The notes beneath the pieces are model-generated. The model saw only the letters and a program-made list of their open reading frames with translations. It was not told where the DNA came from and did no database searches. A program made the translations under genes and the position numbers. A stretch of DNA of 36,614 nucleotides from a virus. This document shows positions 3,752-30,532 of this stretch, in pieces (the stretch's first letter is position 1; each line of letters starts with the position of its first letter). The stretch is from IMG/VR virus record IMGVR_UViG_3300044637_001190, positions 1 to 36,614 of that record; one strand, 5' to 3'.

Positions 3752-3797
3752 AGGCTATCACACTAACCCCAGTGGAGGCTAGGGAAAGGGACAGGTG

Positions 3798-4085
3798 TTA
3801 GATGGCGGTGCGCTTTGCCCAAAAGTATTGGCCAGCGGCGACACCGCCCGTGGTGTTGACCGTGAAGCCAGCCGAACCGGAATCCGACGACGCAGAGCCG
3901 TTGGTGCCAATCAGGATGGTTGCAGTCGAAGACAGAGCCTCCGAAGCACGGGCGTAGAGGTGGAGGCGAGCGTCGTTAGCACGAACAGTCGTGTTGACGG
4001 CGAAGGCCGGGGTCGAGGACTTGTCGTCCAGATCAATCCCCACAGTCGGAATGGTCGAAAAGACCGTAGCAGCAGTCGATGCCAT
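3798..4085 (-). CDS. Small head protein, probably capsid decoration or stabilisation
   Basis: The 95-residue product is rich in Ser, Thr, Ala and Gly with alternating hydrophobic residues, typical of a small beta-structured virion protein. It follows directly after the major capsid gene, where many phages encode a decoration or head-stabilising protein. AAGGAG lies 7-8 bases upstream of its ATG, a strong ribosome site that fits a protein made in large amounts. No enzymatic motif is visible. The decoration role is inferred from position and composition. Confidence 0.75.
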   Translation of the reverse strand: MASTAATVFSTIPTVGIDLDDKSSTPAFAVNTTVRANDARLHLYARASEALSSTATILIGTNGSASSDSGSAGFTVNTTGGVAAGQYFWAKRTAI

Positions 4086-14382: not shown

Positions 14383-14717
14383 TTCACGGCTCCCGTAATG
14401 TCAGCGGCCATCGCCAGAGCCTTCGCAGCCTTATCGGCGGCTTCCTCTTGCAGTTCCCTGTAACGGTAATAAGCGGCAGCAGAGACAACCCCCATCTGGA
14501 AGGGCTGAAAAAACTTTTTCAGGTCGCCTTCAATGTGGTCTTCGTATTCGGCTTCATCGCCGCTTGGGTCGAGAGCGAAGGCGTCCTCACCGATCTTCAG
14601 ACCGTCTTCGCGCAGTTCGTCCGCGTTGGCCCAGTCTTTATCGTTTTCGTGGGCAAAGTCGCGGTGCGCGTCCCACATATCGTCATCCAGCTTGCACAGT
14701 TCTTTTGACATCTTCAT
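14379..14717 (-). CDS. Acidic hypothetical protein, first gene of the leftward unit
   Basis: The protein has 112 residues and is strongly acidic in its first 70 positions (DEAEYEDHIEGDLKKFF and similar), with a helical Ala-rich C-terminus. AAGGGAGAG upstream gives a good ribosome site for the ATG at 14717; a second ATG six bases later is also possible. The gene begins only 20 bases after the end of the candidate structured RNA, so that RNA could control its translation. The function is unknown. Confidence 0.7.
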   Translation of the reverse strand: MKMSKELCKLDDDMWDAHRDFAHENDKDWANADELREDGLKIGEDAFALDPSGDEAEYEDHIEGDLKKFFQPFQMGVVSAAAYYRYRELQEEAADKAAKALAMAADITGAVK

Positions 14718-14737
14718 TTCGTCTCTCCCTTGTTAAG

Positions 14738-14972
14738 TAGCGGATGGCCAAAGCCAGCCCGTTCGTTTGTGACTCGTCAGCCGCGCAATCGACGGCCTCG
14801 CTGGTTAATTCCTTTCGATCCCAAATCCCGTTTCGCTACCCCGGCTTACCGGGTTCCGGTTTGCGGCACTTGGCCACCGGACTTGCCTCGCTACTTTGTT
14901 CATCCGCCGAAAGGGCGCGTTCACTTTCCCCGGATTTCGCCTTGGGCTGTTACCCCTAGCGCCATCCGCTAC
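14738..14972 (-). ncRNA. Candidate structured RNA (235 nt) at the head of the leftward transcript
   Basis: This minus-strand segment begins with GTAGCGGATGGC (14972-14961) and ends with its exact complement GCCATCCGCTAC (14749-14738), a 12-bp closing helix. Inside, local stems are visible: ATCCG/CGGAT (14935-14931 with 14906-14902), CCCGG-TAAG-CCGGG (14853-14840), GGC-CAAGT-GCC (14875-14865) and GCCG/CGGC (14796-14780). Between the stems are purine-rich linkers such as GCGAAAT, GGAAAGTGAA, GAACAAAG, GCAAAC and CGAAAGG, a composition typical of folded RNA. A promoter with its -10 at 14980-14985 would start transcription within one or two bases of the 5' arm. The 3' arm ends just before the ribosome site of the first gene. 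It could be a stable RNA cut from the leader or a cis-acting leader. No long convincing protein reading covers it. Confidence 0.55.
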
Positions 14973-14979
14973 ACGCACC

Positions 14980-15008
14980 ATAAAACACGGCACCGGGGAG
15001 GGCGTCAA
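14980..15008 (-). promoter_or_regulatory. Leftward early promoter
   Basis: On the minus strand TTGACG (15003-15008) and TTTTAT (14980-14985) are exactly 17 bases apart, with five and four matches to consensus. Transcription would begin near 14973 and give a leader of about 255 nt before the first leftward gene. The -35 boxes of this and the rightward promoter are only 13 bases apart, so one regulator could control both. Confidence 0.6.
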
Positions 15009-15021
15009 GCTATCTTTTCGC

Positions 15022-15050
15022 TAGACAGTGCGATTTTGTTCGCCTAGCTT
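15022..15050 (+). promoter_or_regulatory. Rightward early promoter
   Basis: TAGACA (15022-15027) and TAGCTT (15045-15050) are separated by 17 bases, with five and three matches to consensus. A start near 15057 would leave a short leader carrying AAGGGAG before the ATG at 15075. The -10 is poor, which suggests that an activator is needed or that the exact boxes differ slightly. The stretch CTAGACAGTGCG and TTCGCCTAG nearby gives partial dyad symmetry that could serve as an operator. Confidence 0.42.
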
Positions 15051-15074
15051 AGTGGCAGAAAGGGAGACAAGCTA

Positions 15075-15308
15075 ATGAGCATTTGGGACGAACTGGACGC
15101 CGAAAAGGAAGCGGAGATTGCCGCTTTCCGGGCGGCAGAGGCAGCAAAAACGCCGGAGCAAAAAGAAGCCGAGCGCATCGCAGCCGAGAACCGGGCGCAA
15201 GCCGCCCATGACGAAGGTGTCCGGCTTGGATGGTGGGATGAAGAGGGTAACAGCCTCGCAATTGAAACCGACGATGAGGACGAAGAAGAGGACGAAAACG
15301 ACGAATGA
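15075..15308 (+). CDS. Very acidic small early protein
   Basis: This 77-residue protein is the first gene of the rightward unit. It has an Ala/Glu/Lys helix (residues 10-50) with a WW pair after it, and then an extremely acidic tail in which nearly all of the last 16 residues are Asp or Glu. AAGGGAG lies eight bases before the ATG. Early phage proteins of this type are sometimes DNA mimics that block host nucleases or nucleoid proteins. That is only a possibility here. The TGA overlaps the HTH gene start. Confidence 0.72.
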   Translation: MSIWDELDAEKEAEIAAFRAAEAAKTPEQKEAERIAAENRAQAAHDEGVRLGWWDEEGNSLAIETDDEDEEEDENDE

Positions 15309-16087: not shown

Positions 16088-16455
16088 ACCGAGAACCCGT
16101 CGTCATCCGCCCTCGCAAGTCGTTTAGCGCCAAAGACCGCGCCCGAATCTTTGCCCTCCATGACGGCATCTGCGGCATATCCAAGCGCAAGATTCAGGCT
16201 GGCGAGGCATGGGAGATTGAGCATCGAATAGCCCTTGCTCTAGGCGGGACGAACGAGGACGAAAACCTATACCCGGCCCTCAAAGAGCCGCACAAAGGGA
16301 AAACCCGGACGGACAAGGGCGCTATCGCAAAGTGCAAGCGTATCGAGCGGAAATCAAACCCGCTGACCCGCAAGCCTAGCACGATGCAATCCCGCCCGTT
16401 TCCAAAGACTAAAACCACATGGCCAAAGCGGCCTTTTAAGGGGAGAGAGAGTTGA
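16084..16455 (+). CDS. HNH endonuclease
   Basis: The 123-residue protein carries an HNH motif: CGISKRKI (one half of a possible zinc pair), EIEHRIALALGGTNEDENLY (with the key His-Arg/Asn elements), and KGKTRTDKGAIAKCKRIERK at the C-terminal side. The basic tail ends in repeated Lys/Pro/Arg. This form is common as a cargo or restriction-like nuclease in phages and lacks the AP2 module of the two other HNH genes at 19370 and 35411. The start is GTG in a GTGA overlap with the DUF1064 stop. Confidence 0.85.
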   Translation: MNREPVVIRPRKSFSAKDRARIFALHDGICGISKRKIQAGEAWEIEHRIALALGGTNEDENLYPALKEPHKGKTRTDKGAIAKCKRIERKSNPLTRKPSTMQSRPFPKTKTTWPKRPFKGRES

Positions 16456-16820
16456 GACAGACAGTCGCTAATATCTTGCGGGAGGTCGCGCAGGAACACG
16501 GGCTAACCGTTGCCGCGCTAACCGGGCAAGGTCGCTCGCGTCATATCGCATGGCCAAGGCAGGAGGCTTATTACAGGGCCTTCACCGAGTGCCCGCACCT
16601 TTCTTATCCAGAGATTGCCCGGCGCATCGGTGGTCGTGACCATACAACAGTTTTGCACGGGGTCCGCGCTCATTGCGAACGGAATAACCAGACATACGCT
16701 CAGGCCGTTCGGATTAGGAAGCATGGCGGGCCGGACTTTGCGTTCTATGCGCTGGCCAAAGGTTACGAGCGGACGATGGTGACTGCCAGATCAGGAGGCG
16801 AGTATGCATCAGCCGCGTAA
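16452..16820 (+). CDS. Stand-alone DnaA domain-IV-like DNA-binding protein
   Basis: The 122-residue protein contains the DnaA C-terminal signature GGRDHTTVLHGVRAHCE (near residues 59-75), preceded by a helix with SYPEIARRI. In DnaA this domain reads the origin boxes. The ATPase domains are absent here. An N-terminal helix (VANILREVAQEHGLTVAALT) completes the domain. Such proteins could bind DnaA boxes in the phage or host origin. The start is TTG in a TTGA overlap, with a strong AGGGGAG upstream. One near-consensus box, TTATCCAGA, occurs within the gene at 16604-16612. Confidence 0.85.
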   Translation: MRQTVANILREVAQEHGLTVAALTGQGRSRHIAWPRQEAYYRAFTECPHLSYPEIARRIGGRDHTTVLHGVRAHCERNNQTYAQAVRIRKHGGPDFAFYALAKGYERTMVTARSGGEYASAA

Positions 16821-19223: not shown

Positions 19224-19373
19224 ATGGAAACGACGAAATATCACCGCCCCGGCGTAAGGCTGGACCCGCAAGACAAAGCCCTGCTTGATAAGCTGGTCCG
19301 CGTTTACGGCTCGGAAGCTCAAGCTGTTCGAGTAGCTATCAGGACGCTTGCCGAGCGTTACGGTGCCGTATGA
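19224..19373 (+). CDS. Small ribbon-helix-helix-like protein (49 residues)
   Basis: A 49-codon ORF runs from ATG 19224 to TGA 19371-19373. After a short basic start the sequence RPGVRLDPQDKALLDKLVRV and the following SEAQAVRVAIRTLAERYG give one strand and two helices, matching a ribbon-helix-helix DNA-binding protein. The TGA overlaps the ATG of the HNH gene. Only a distant GGTGA lies upstream, so the ribosome site is weak. It is probably a repressor of nearby accessory genes. Confidence 0.68.
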   Translation: METTKYHRPGVRLDPQDKALLDKLVRVYGSEAQAVRVAIRTLAERYGAV

Positions 19374-19921
19374 CGCATTCAGTTTGCGTATGTGGCGATC
19401 ATGCATGGAGACCAGCTTCTCTAGGGCTTGTCGCCATCATGGATGTTTCAATCGCGCCGAAGTTTGATGCGTGGCGATTGTTCGGTCACCACAAAAAGAA
19501 AAGCAGCGGGCGCATTTATAGCCGCATCATTGCGTGTCTAGGAAAACGCAAAGGCGGAACCGGGAAGAATATTTCTCTCGGGCGCGCAATCCTAAACGCC
19601 GATGGAATCGTTGATCACATAGACAACGACCCGACTAACAACAAACTTTCCAACCTCCGGCCAGTAACGATTGCTCAAAACAACGCAAACCGAAGAGGAA
19701 CATCGTTGTCTGGAGCCAAAGGCGTAACGTTTGCGAGGGGAGGATACCAAGTAGCGTGTGCCCACAAATACGTTGGTCGATTCAAAACTTTAGATGAAGC
19801 GGCGGCGGCATACCAAAAGCGAGCGGAAGAAGTCTGGGGTTCGGATTTTGTAAACACAAAACTCAACCGGACATTCTCGCTCATGACAAAAGCATCAGAA
19901 CAAGAGGGAGAAGAACAATGA
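19370..19921 (+). CDS. HNH homing endonuclease with AP2-like domain
   Basis: The product is up to 183 residues. The nuclease motif is seen at IVDHIDNDPTNNKLSNLRPV, followed by the conserved Asn-rich NNANRRG. The C-terminal part (GVTFARGGYQVACAHKYVGR then FKTLDEAAAAYQKRA) is an AP2-like DNA-binding fold. The ATG at 19370 makes an ATGA overlap with the RHH gene, but the first 23 residues look unlike the rest and the ATG at 19439 is a reasonable alternative. It is related in design to the HNH at 35411-35911. It is likely a free-standing homing nuclease; the upstream junction may mark its insertion point. Confidence 0.85.
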   Translation: MTHSVCVCGDHAWRPASLGLVAIMDVSIAPKFDAWRLFGHHKKKSSGRIYSRIIACLGKRKGGTGKNISLGRAILNADGIVDHIDNDPTNNKLSNLRPVTIAQNNANRRGTSLSGAKGVTFARGGYQVACAHKYVGRFKTLDEAAAAYQKRAEEVWGSDFVNTKLNRTFSLMTKASEQEGEEQ

Positions 19922-27853: not shown

Positions 27854-30532
27854 CTAGTCCTCTTGTCCTGAGCCGAGAGCTACAGTCGCACGAATGCGGT
27901 TAGCGCCACGGGGGCGGTTGAGCGCACGGGTCAGCCGGGCGTTAAAGTCTTCGGAGTTGGCCATCAGCAAATCGGCCAGCGTTTCGGCGTTGCGACGGGC
28001 CACAATGTCATCAATCCCAGTCGCAATCCGACCAGGAATTCCGGGAATGTTTGCGACAGAGCGAACTGCGCCACTAGCCACGTTTCCGCCTGCCATTTGC
28101 CGCTGAATGTCTTGATTAAACGCCGTATCGGAACCCGCGCGGTGACGCTGGCCAGTGGCTTGCAGCACCTCGACAAGCTGCGCCATCGGGTCAGAACCGC
28201 GAGCAGGCATCGCGTTGGCGCTCAAGGGTGGGAACGCCATGTTAGGGTCGGGGCGGTTCACAACGTCAAGCGCCCCCATAACAGTCCGGCGCTGTTCAGG
28301 GTTGCCAAAAGCTCGCGCGGCAAAGTTTGCGCCGCCAAACTGGTTAGACCCCGTGGCCAGTTCTTGCTGCGCTTCCATCGCTTGACGCGCTAGTTGCTGC
28401 CGAACAAGCGGGCCACCGACAGACGGGTCAATCTCGCCCATCAGTTCTAGCGCACGGGCTGTTTCAGCGGCTTGGCCCTCAAACGGCGTGTCAGGGAACA
28501 TTCGTCCCGTCATGTTGACAAGGTTTGGAGCTGGACCTGCGTCAGCAAGCGCACCAATCGGACCGGCTTTCAGCGGGTCAATAAACGCTTCATTGATGCC
28601 GCGCACCGTGTCGCGGGCCATGCCGTAATCTGGCGAGGCTTGGCGGGCAAGTGCGTCCGCCAAATCAGCAGCTTCACCGCGAACGGACGCCCGCGTCATC
28701 GACCCGCCAACTCGCGCAGAATTTGGCGCGGCTTCTTCGGCCATCGTGCGGAGTTGCTTTACAACTTCGTTGACGACTTGAAGCCCTCGATCACCCGTGG
28801 CGGGGCCGAGACGAATATTTTGCGGGTCAAAAACCGAATAAACCGTCGATGGACCGCCTTGGCCCATATAGTCATCGACCGAATTGCGGACGATAACCGA
28901 ATCATTGCCGCCCGCTCTTGCTTCGTCTAGCGCTCCCCGCGTGCCGCTCCACCTACGCCCCGCACCCTCAATTTCTAGCGGATTTTGAAGGCGTAGCCGA
29001 GCTTCTAAAACGCCCGGTTCAGCGTTTTGATAATCCCATGCGCGTTGAGGGTCAGCGTATGTTCTTGCTACGCTTGGGTTATCGGTAAACCAAAACGCCC
29101 TGGACGAATCATTTACCCCGTAAAGCTCTTGAGGCGTTTTGAATCCGCCCGCTAGTCCACGCACATCGGGAGTGCCGTGATAAACCGGCCCTGTCGTGAA
29201 TGGGTCGGCAATTAGCGGTGCGATTTCTGGATCATTGCGAACCGCCTGAAGGGCTGTTTGATAAGACGGACTGTTCGCAAGTTGAGCGTATTGGTCTTCC
29301 GGTATCGATTGTTCCGGCAAGCGCCGATAAAACGGGCCAGCGTCCTCATTTGCGCGTTGACGCAAGCGAGTCAATACGCCCTCTGCCGCGTCGCGGACCC
29401 GAGGCGCAAGTGTAGACGGCTCAACGCTTGGCGCAATCTGGTTTAGCCGCGACTCAATAGCGCCCTGAACTTGAGCGGGGCGATTGGCAAACATCGGTGC
29501 CATGCGCGTCGTTTGGCCTTCCACCACACGCTGCAAGCGGCCCAGACCAGACCCGCCGCCCGTGACTTGCTGAATGGCCTCTGCGTTGGTCAAATCAATG
29601 CCCATTGCTTGCGCGTCACGCCGAAGCGCCGTTGCCAGTTGCAAGTTTTGCGGAGTTACGCCTTCCGCCGCATTGCGGAGGGAAATATCAGCACCGCCGC
29701 GAACCGCGCTCGCGCCACCAACGGCAAAACCACCCCCGAGGCCACCGAGCAACCGGGCAAAGTTTTCAGCGTTTGTATCGCGCTCACCGCCGCTCATGCC
29801 ACGCGCAATCTGGCCAGCGGTTTCGCTAGTAAACGCGGGGACCGCTACGGATGCGCCCCTTGCAAGGGCAGAACCTGGCGCCAGCGCACCAGGAAGAAAC
29901 TCGCCAACGGTCCGCGAGTATTCACCTGCAACGGTCTGCGGCTGATAATAATCACGCCCCAGCCCCTGACGAATCGTCTCGTTTAGTTGCTCGCCGGTCG
30001 GGCCAACAATGCCAAATCCGGGCATATTTTGCCCCAGCGATTGCTCGCCGTAAATCATTTGGCCGATTGTGCCTTGCATACCAGCAAGGCCGGTCAGTCC
30101 CTCAACCACGCCAGTCGGGAGCGATTTTGCTATGTCTTCGACGACAGACTGCGGACGAACATTAACGCCCGGCGCTTGTGGCAGATCACCGACGCGAAAC
30201 TGTCCTTCTACCGGGTCAGACGGAAGGGGATAGACCGTGCCATCAGGGCCTTTAACCCACATTCCACGCTTCATGCCCGCAGCGGTCGCGCGGTCCACCG
30301 TAGCAAGATCAATTGGGTTGTTTGGCGACGAACCTGGGCCGGTGTCAGGATAAATGCTGTTGTCACCCGCGTCTTGTTGCGGGTTGAAACCGACCGAGGC
30401 GTAAAAATCAGCCAGCGGGATGTCAGAATAGAACCGGCCATGAATGGCATTCGCCAGTGTCATGTCGTCCATATCGTCATATTCGGGGAACCGTTCCCGA
30501 ACCTGATCCATTGTCATTTTTTCTTGCGGCAT
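27854..30532 (-). CDS. Large internal/ejection protein with ADP-ribosyltransferase-like domain
   Basis: This 892-residue virion protein opens with a short module common in podovirus ejection proteins (MTLANAIHGRFYSDIPLADF). A membrane-active, Gly/Ala-rich region lies near residues 130-280 (GVVEGLTGLAGMQGTIGQMI, LLGGLGGGFAVGGASA). At about 450-575 the pattern YHGT, FWFTDNPSVARTYA, DSVIVRN and VYSVFDPQNIR matches the ADP-ribosyltransferase-like domains found in phage polyvalent proteins. The C-terminus is helical. Such proteins enter the cell with the DNA, so the domain could modify a host target at once. Enzyme activity is not proven. The TAATG overlap links it to the gene before. Confidence 0.8.
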   Translation of the reverse strand: MPQEKMTMDQVRERFPEYDDMDDMTLANAIHGRFYSDIPLADFYASVGFNPQQDAGDNSIYPDTGPGSSPNNPIDLATVDRATAAGMKRGMWVKGPDGTVYPLPSDPVEGQFRVGDLPQAPGVNVRPQSVVEDIAKSLPTGVVEGLTGLAGMQGTIGQMIYGEQSLGQNMPGFGIVGPTGEQLNETIRQGLGRDYYQPQTVAGEYSRTVGEFLPGALAPGSALARGASVAVPAFTSETAGQIARGMSGGERDTNAENFARLLGGLGGGFAVGGASAVRGGADISLRNAAEGVTPQNLQLATALRRDAQAMGIDLTNAEAIQQVTGGGSGLGRLQRVVEGQTTRMAPMFANRPAQVQGAIESRLNQIAPSVEPSTLAPRVRDAAEGVLTRLRQRANEDAGPFYRRLPEQSIPEDQYAQLANSPSYQTALQAVRNDPEIAPLIADPFTTGPVYHGTPDVRGLAGGFKTPQELYGVNDSSRAFWFTDNPSVARTYADPQRAWDYQNAEPGVLEARLRLQNPLEIEGAGRRWSGTRGALDEARAGGNDSVIVRNSVDDYMGQGGPSTVYSVFDPQNIRLGPATGDRGLQVVNEVVKQLRTMAEEAAPNSARVGGSMTRASVRGEAADLADALARQASPDYGMARDTVRGINEAFIDPLKAGPIGALADAGPAPNLVNMTGRMFPDTPFEGQAAETARALELMGEIDPSVGGPLVRQQLARQAMEAQQELATGSNQFGGANFAARAFGNPEQRRTVMGALDVVNRPDPNMAFPPLSANAMPARGSDPMAQLVEVLQATGQRHRAGSDTAFNQDIQRQMAGGNVASGAVRSVANIPGIPGRIATGIDDIVARRNAETLADLLMANSEDFNARLTRALNRPRGANRIRATVALGSGQED

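Follow-up and report, generated by a model that had tools for sequence, protein, structure and literature searches.

An optional, apparently non-coding leader element with a conserved closing helix ahead of a phage early recombination operon

The early recombination operon of the phage studied here, which encodes Rad52, SSB and an exonuclease, is preceded by a 236-nt leader element that is optional within the phage family. In the window (the whole 36,614-nt stretch analysed, IMG/VR record IMGVR_UViG_3300044637_001190), the element occupies 14737-14972 on the minus strand and runs from the 5′ arm to the 3′ arm of a perfect closing helix, P1. The first pair of P1 falls at the predicted +1 or +2, and its last pair lies 7 nt before the GGGAG of the ribosome site (Table 1). 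We tentatively read the element as an optional non-coding 5′-leader cassette of the operon, acting in cis and traded between phages by recombination, and put the chance of this reading a little below even. The first-pass annotation had proposed a structured RNA enclosed by perfect 12-bp arms, starting within a base or two of the predicted start site of a minus-strand TTGACG-N17-TTTTAT promoter and ending just before a ribosome site. The promoter, the position of the 5′ arm (14972-14961) and both placements are confirmed; the arms are indeed complementary, but the 3′ arm lies at 14748-14737 and not, as had been given, one base away at 14749-14738.

Along the minus strand, the promoter is followed by GGTGC and then GTGTAGCGGATGGC. 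At the other end, directly 3′ of the P1 3′ arm, comes TTAACAAGGGAGAGACGAAATG, the ribosome site and the beginning of the first operon gene. The window promoter (15008-14980) falls under the threshold of the consensus scanner; its TTGACG and −10 region are kept in 24 relatives, with TTGACA in L019 as an exception to the −35 hexamer.

Table 1. Leader element and adjoining features, in window coordinates
Feature	Coordinates	Strand	Remarks
−35 hexamer TTGACG, early operon promoter	15003-15008	−	common to 24 element-free relatives and the 2 other carriers
−10 hexamer TTTTAT, 17-nt spacer	14980-14985	−	relatives keep GTGTTTTATGG or have the variants CTTTTGT / CTATAT
Leader RNA element, allele A	14737-14972	−	234/236 identical in L002; missing from 24 related contigs
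P1 5′ arm GTAGCGGATGGC	14961-14972	−	perfect, invariant in 3/3 carriers; in relatives the arm has 14 nt (14961-14974)
Constant 5′ frame, 58 nt, common to allele B	14915-14972	−	54/58 identical to L005
Candidate hairpin GGG-GUAACAG-CCC	within 14915-14972	−	in constant 5′ frame
Variable interior	14767-14914	−	148 nt in allele A, ~177 nt in allele B
Constant 3′ frame, GAACGGGCTGGCTTTG plus P1 3′ arm	14737-14766	−	29/30 identical to L005
P1 3′ arm GCCATCCGCTAC	14737-14748	−	perfect 12-bp complement, invariant in 3/3 carriers
Ribosome site GGGAG	14725-14729	−	inside conserved string AACAAGGGAG, found in every carrier and every empty site
First operon gene, 112 aa	14379-14717	−	without family match

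The P1 arms form the only perfect inverted repeat of at least 12 bp with a gap of up to 300 nt in the window. Dinucleotide shuffles yield 0.28 such repeats per window at gaps of 150-300, so the repeat alone is unremarkable; what is remarkable is its exact placement, and that all three carriers keep it. In relatives, P1 is two pairs longer (GTGTAGC...GCTACAC, equivalent to 14735-14974), and in the window these two outer positions are G·U and U-U.

The other two carriers, L002 (IMGVR_UViG_3300035190_000542) and L005 (IMGVR_UViG_3300042914_002058), were found by scanning 2.9 million viral contigs with four patterns taken from the element, and have it at the same place. The element of L002 is 99% identical to that of the window, against 83.8% in the upstream flank and 70.6% in the downstream flank, and the first operon protein is 61% identical between the two. 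The non-coding element with a helix joining 5′ end to ribosome site is real, and in L002 it is conserved far beyond its flanks; the identity may come from recent transfer or from constraint, either of which can produce it. L005 carries a second version, allele B, which retains the first ~58 nt and the last ~30 nt. The closing helix of L005 has 14 bp (the 14-bp form occurs in two carriers), and its interior is ~30 nt longer than that of the window and not alignable beyond weak local similarity, giving a length of 236-265 nt across carriers. The local score of the sequence alignment of the two interiors is reached by 11/500 shuffles, a weak signal, and distant homology is possible. As judged from these alignments, the retention of the ends and not the middle argues against a uniform rRNA-like constraint and for allele exchange. 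No protein gene limited to the carriers was found, so that the element has no obvious need of a trans partner. Carriers differ in the gene divergent from the operon; in the window it encodes a 77-aa protein without family match (15075-15308, plus strand), and in L002 a 64-aa protein (3782-3976, minus strand) whose PapB-type match is weak and under the curated cutoff.

In 24 related contigs the promoter and AACAAGGGAG are separated by 34-37 bases, measured from the first base of TTGAC, compared with about 270-300 in filled sites, and 5-8 unrelated bases occupy the place of the element. A promoter-based scan blind to the element returned 17 contigs, 2 of them carriers. That carriers and non-carriers have the same promoter and ribosome site supports the cassette reading, and exchange is further supported by G003, a close sister with an empty site that shares 98-99% identity with the window in its Rad52, SSB and exonuclease genes. 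The final two bases (TT) before AACAAGG in the window match G003 (ATTAACAAGG) and differ from the other carriers (ACAACAAGG), a pattern consistent with a recombination joint at the ribosome site.

Among the relatives, mosaicism runs through the whole of the early regions. The promoter-leader-ribosome-site junction (window 14717-15075 and the matching regions of L002-L107) looks like a recombination joint, around which relatives exchange the upstream flank, in at least three types, as well as the leader element and the small gene or two that come first. These exchanged parts are arranged around the conserved TTGACG...GTGTTTTATGG and AACAAGGGAG. Extra TTGAC promoters 34-37 bases before AACAAGGGAG occur in L024 at 8205 (plus strand) and 11935 (minus strand), and these copies suggest that the promoter/ribosome-site cassette may be used at several places in the family. 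Elsewhere in the window, an HNH endonuclease (19370-19921, plus strand; PF13392) is 99% identical in G007 and missing from most relatives, and is possibly a free-standing homing gene. A 122-aa phage protein with a DnaA C-terminal helix-turn-helix domain (PF08299, E 6.5e-18) is encoded at 16452-16820 on the plus strand, and an 892-aa protein with a sub-threshold match to ART-PolyVal (ADP-ribosyltransferase in polyvalent proteins) at 27854-30532 on the minus strand.

Conserved ends with unrelated interiors are typical of MITE families. A non-autonomous, MITE-like mobile DNA element with 14-bp terminal inverted repeats, lying in the leader by chance and transcribed incidentally, would account for the perfect repeats, the clean empty sites and the conserved ends around a free middle. 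We nonetheless consider such an origin improbable, as the junctions show no target-site duplication when set against empty sites, the element sits at a single location in 3/3 carriers, and no other copy was recovered in phage, viral, bacterial/archaeal or plasmid searches. More specifically, 1.4 Mb of phage sequence contained no further copy, and two diagnostic strings gave zero exact matches in 84,980 bacterial and archaeal genomes. Allele A has no blastn relative in 50,697 phage records or in plasmids; allele B has no blastn match in plasmids, and its weak phage matches touch flanking coding sequence only. Two 18-mer matches (L068, L069) and a 17-mer match (L108) were set aside as chance matches in unrelated sequence.

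The element also stands apart from known RNA families. With Rfam 15, the whole window has no match at gathering score, and the comparison that the first-pass annotation had recommended returned nothing at E ≤ 10 for either allele (window 14600-15100; L005 1350-1800). No covariance-model match was obtained to families including RNase P, group I and II introns, tmRNA and hammerhead, and no tRNA or tmRNA was found. Several resemblances noticed along the way were rejected. Two RNase P-like strings (GAGGCAAGUCCGG, GCGGUAAGAG) and an rRNA-like string (GGUAGCGAAA), all seen by eye, have no covariance-model support at E ≤ 10; a hammerhead-like CUGACGA (14795-14780 region, 3′ side) has no GAAA partner and is missing in allele B; the group II intron start GUGCG lacks a domain V, in an element that is too short and without Rfam match; and an anti-Shine-Dalgarno switch pairing the interior CCCUU with AAGGG is not retained in allele B. 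The element resembles candidate structured-RNA motifs from comparative genomics (PMC2864571, PMC8040213) in being an orphan non-coding segment at a conserved position. It differs from them in lying outside Rfam 15 at any reported score, in having no covariation support and in having three known carriers. It is an orphan, and its function is one that we infer.

The window and L002 both have an open sense ORF (14805-15008) and an open antisense ORF (14744-14959), as a small protein-coding insertion would. The sense ORF begins upstream of the predicted transcription start, however, and neither frame is retained in allele B, where the sense ORF stops early and the antisense ORF diverges (50 aa). 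A coding insertion is thereby largely refuted and we regard it as highly implausible. The earlier annotation had named translation of the region as an outcome that would speak against its RNA; neither the sense nor the antisense ORF survives in allele B, and as far as can be told from the two alleles the element is non-coding, with no reading frame kept between them.

The predicted fold consists of the closing helix around a multi-branched interior. Against dinucleotide shuffles, the whole element folds with z of −2.6 in the window, −3.8 in L002 and −1.9 in L005, whereas with P1 removed the interior gives z of +0.07 in the window and +1.16 in L005. The folding excess over shuffles therefore comes from P1, and the interior is no better than shuffled sequence. 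On the boundaries of the first-pass annotation, the fold gives z = −2.2. Its "several GC stems" do not hold up as a defined fold: in a three-row alignment on the window fold, 1/72 pairs shows a two-sided change, and a structural alignment of the two interiors with a home-made LocARNA-type program was equalled by 175/200 shuffles, so that the alleles share no structure beyond that of shuffles. The covariation score is no better than that of shuffles, with three carriers and two alleles only. Within P1, 0/12 pairs vary, and with three carriers and an invariant helix the proposed comparison of compensatory changes is uninformative. The two bases at which the elements of the window and L002 differ both sit in predicted loops of the window's fold, a location compatible with that structure and too small a number for a test. 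By eye, and without statistics, both alleles allow a candidate helix between CC(A/G)GC and the GCUGG in the constant 3′ frame. As a conserved inverted repeat P1 is well supported by the sequence comparison, while the rest of the modelled fold is unproven.

No terminator-like U-tract, second promoter or processing signal was seen in the sequence 3′ of the element. Without a U-tract or second promoter, the element should remain in the mRNA unless it is processed, and the suggestion in the first-pass annotation of a stable RNA cut out of the leader finds no direct support. The missing signals also bear on a trans-acting phage RNA (a decoy, or a host-takeover or anti-defence RNA) processed from the leader, in which the constant frame would serve processing or stability and the interior would contact the target. 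Two interiors that cannot be aligned, set between constant 5′ and 3′ frames, are the pattern expected of a display scaffold, and the optional presence resembles that of accessory anti-host functions. Besides the missing terminator and processing signals, there are only two alleles, no target has been identified and the interior has no defined fold, and we judge a trans-acting RNA possible but unlikely.

In the cis-acting cassette that we favour, transcription would start at the base of P1, at the predicted start, so that the 5′ end of the RNA would be held in a 12-14 bp duplex and a domain of ~210-240 nt would be displayed between the 5′ end and the ribosome site. The cassette would act on its own mRNA, most likely through protection of the 5′ end against 5′-end-dependent decay, and the sealed end would lengthen or raise expression of the recombination operon. 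Recombination in the constant flanks, the promoter upstream and AACAAGGGAG downstream, would spread it among related phages. RppH prefers single-stranded 5′ termini (PMC3997798), which makes a 5′-terminal duplex a known stabiliser. Because P1 is perfect in 3/3 carriers and starts at the predicted +1, the element is joined to the mRNA and RppH has this preference, a leader that seals the 5′ end is the most economical reading. The 5′-terminal stem-loop stabilisers of the ompA and papA type similarly place the 5′ end of an mRNA leader in a duplex, at +1 or adjacent to it, with sequence between this duplex and the ribosome site; the few-nucleotide distance of the duplex from the 5′ end is given here by the predicted start site only. 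Unlike in those stabilisers, the duplex here encloses a domain of 210-240 nt that has conserved sequence blocks and allelic interiors, in an optional cassette.

Some features sit poorly with 5′-end sealing. A simple cap needs no 240-nt domain or conserved loop, yet the frames are conserved base for base; sealing leaves the conservation of the inner ends around a free middle unexplained; and the interior structure is unproven. Serious rivals are a function of the frames in binding RNA polymerase or another host factor, and a trans-acting RNA. Within the cis reading, the main alternative is a put-like effect on the transcribing polymerase, in which the nascent leader would bind RNA polymerase and promote read-through of pauses and terminators across the long early operon. 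HK022 putL likewise begins just downstream of the early promoter PL, precedes an early operon and acts without a dedicated protein; put RNA binds RNA polymerase (PMC9378689). However, put is ~70 nt with two stem-loops (PMC9378689), compared with 236-265 nt and another architecture here; no phage record shows blastn similarity, and most relatives run the operon without the element. We give a put-like element a small chance, marginally less than a MITE-like one. Rather unlikely, if less so than either of these, is a new phage RNA class with a fixed scaffold (the 12-14 bp helix and constant blocks) at +1 and exchangeable interiors, which would regulate in trans or by binding RNA polymerase and be exchanged as a leader cassette.

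If functional, the element would be an undescribed phage RNA that comes with a near-ideal natural control: close relatives that have promoter, ribosome site and operon in common and are distinguished by the presence of the element. With such natural pairs, what it does to the expression of early genes can be put to a direct test, and alleles that share their ends but not their interiors could show which part carries the activity.
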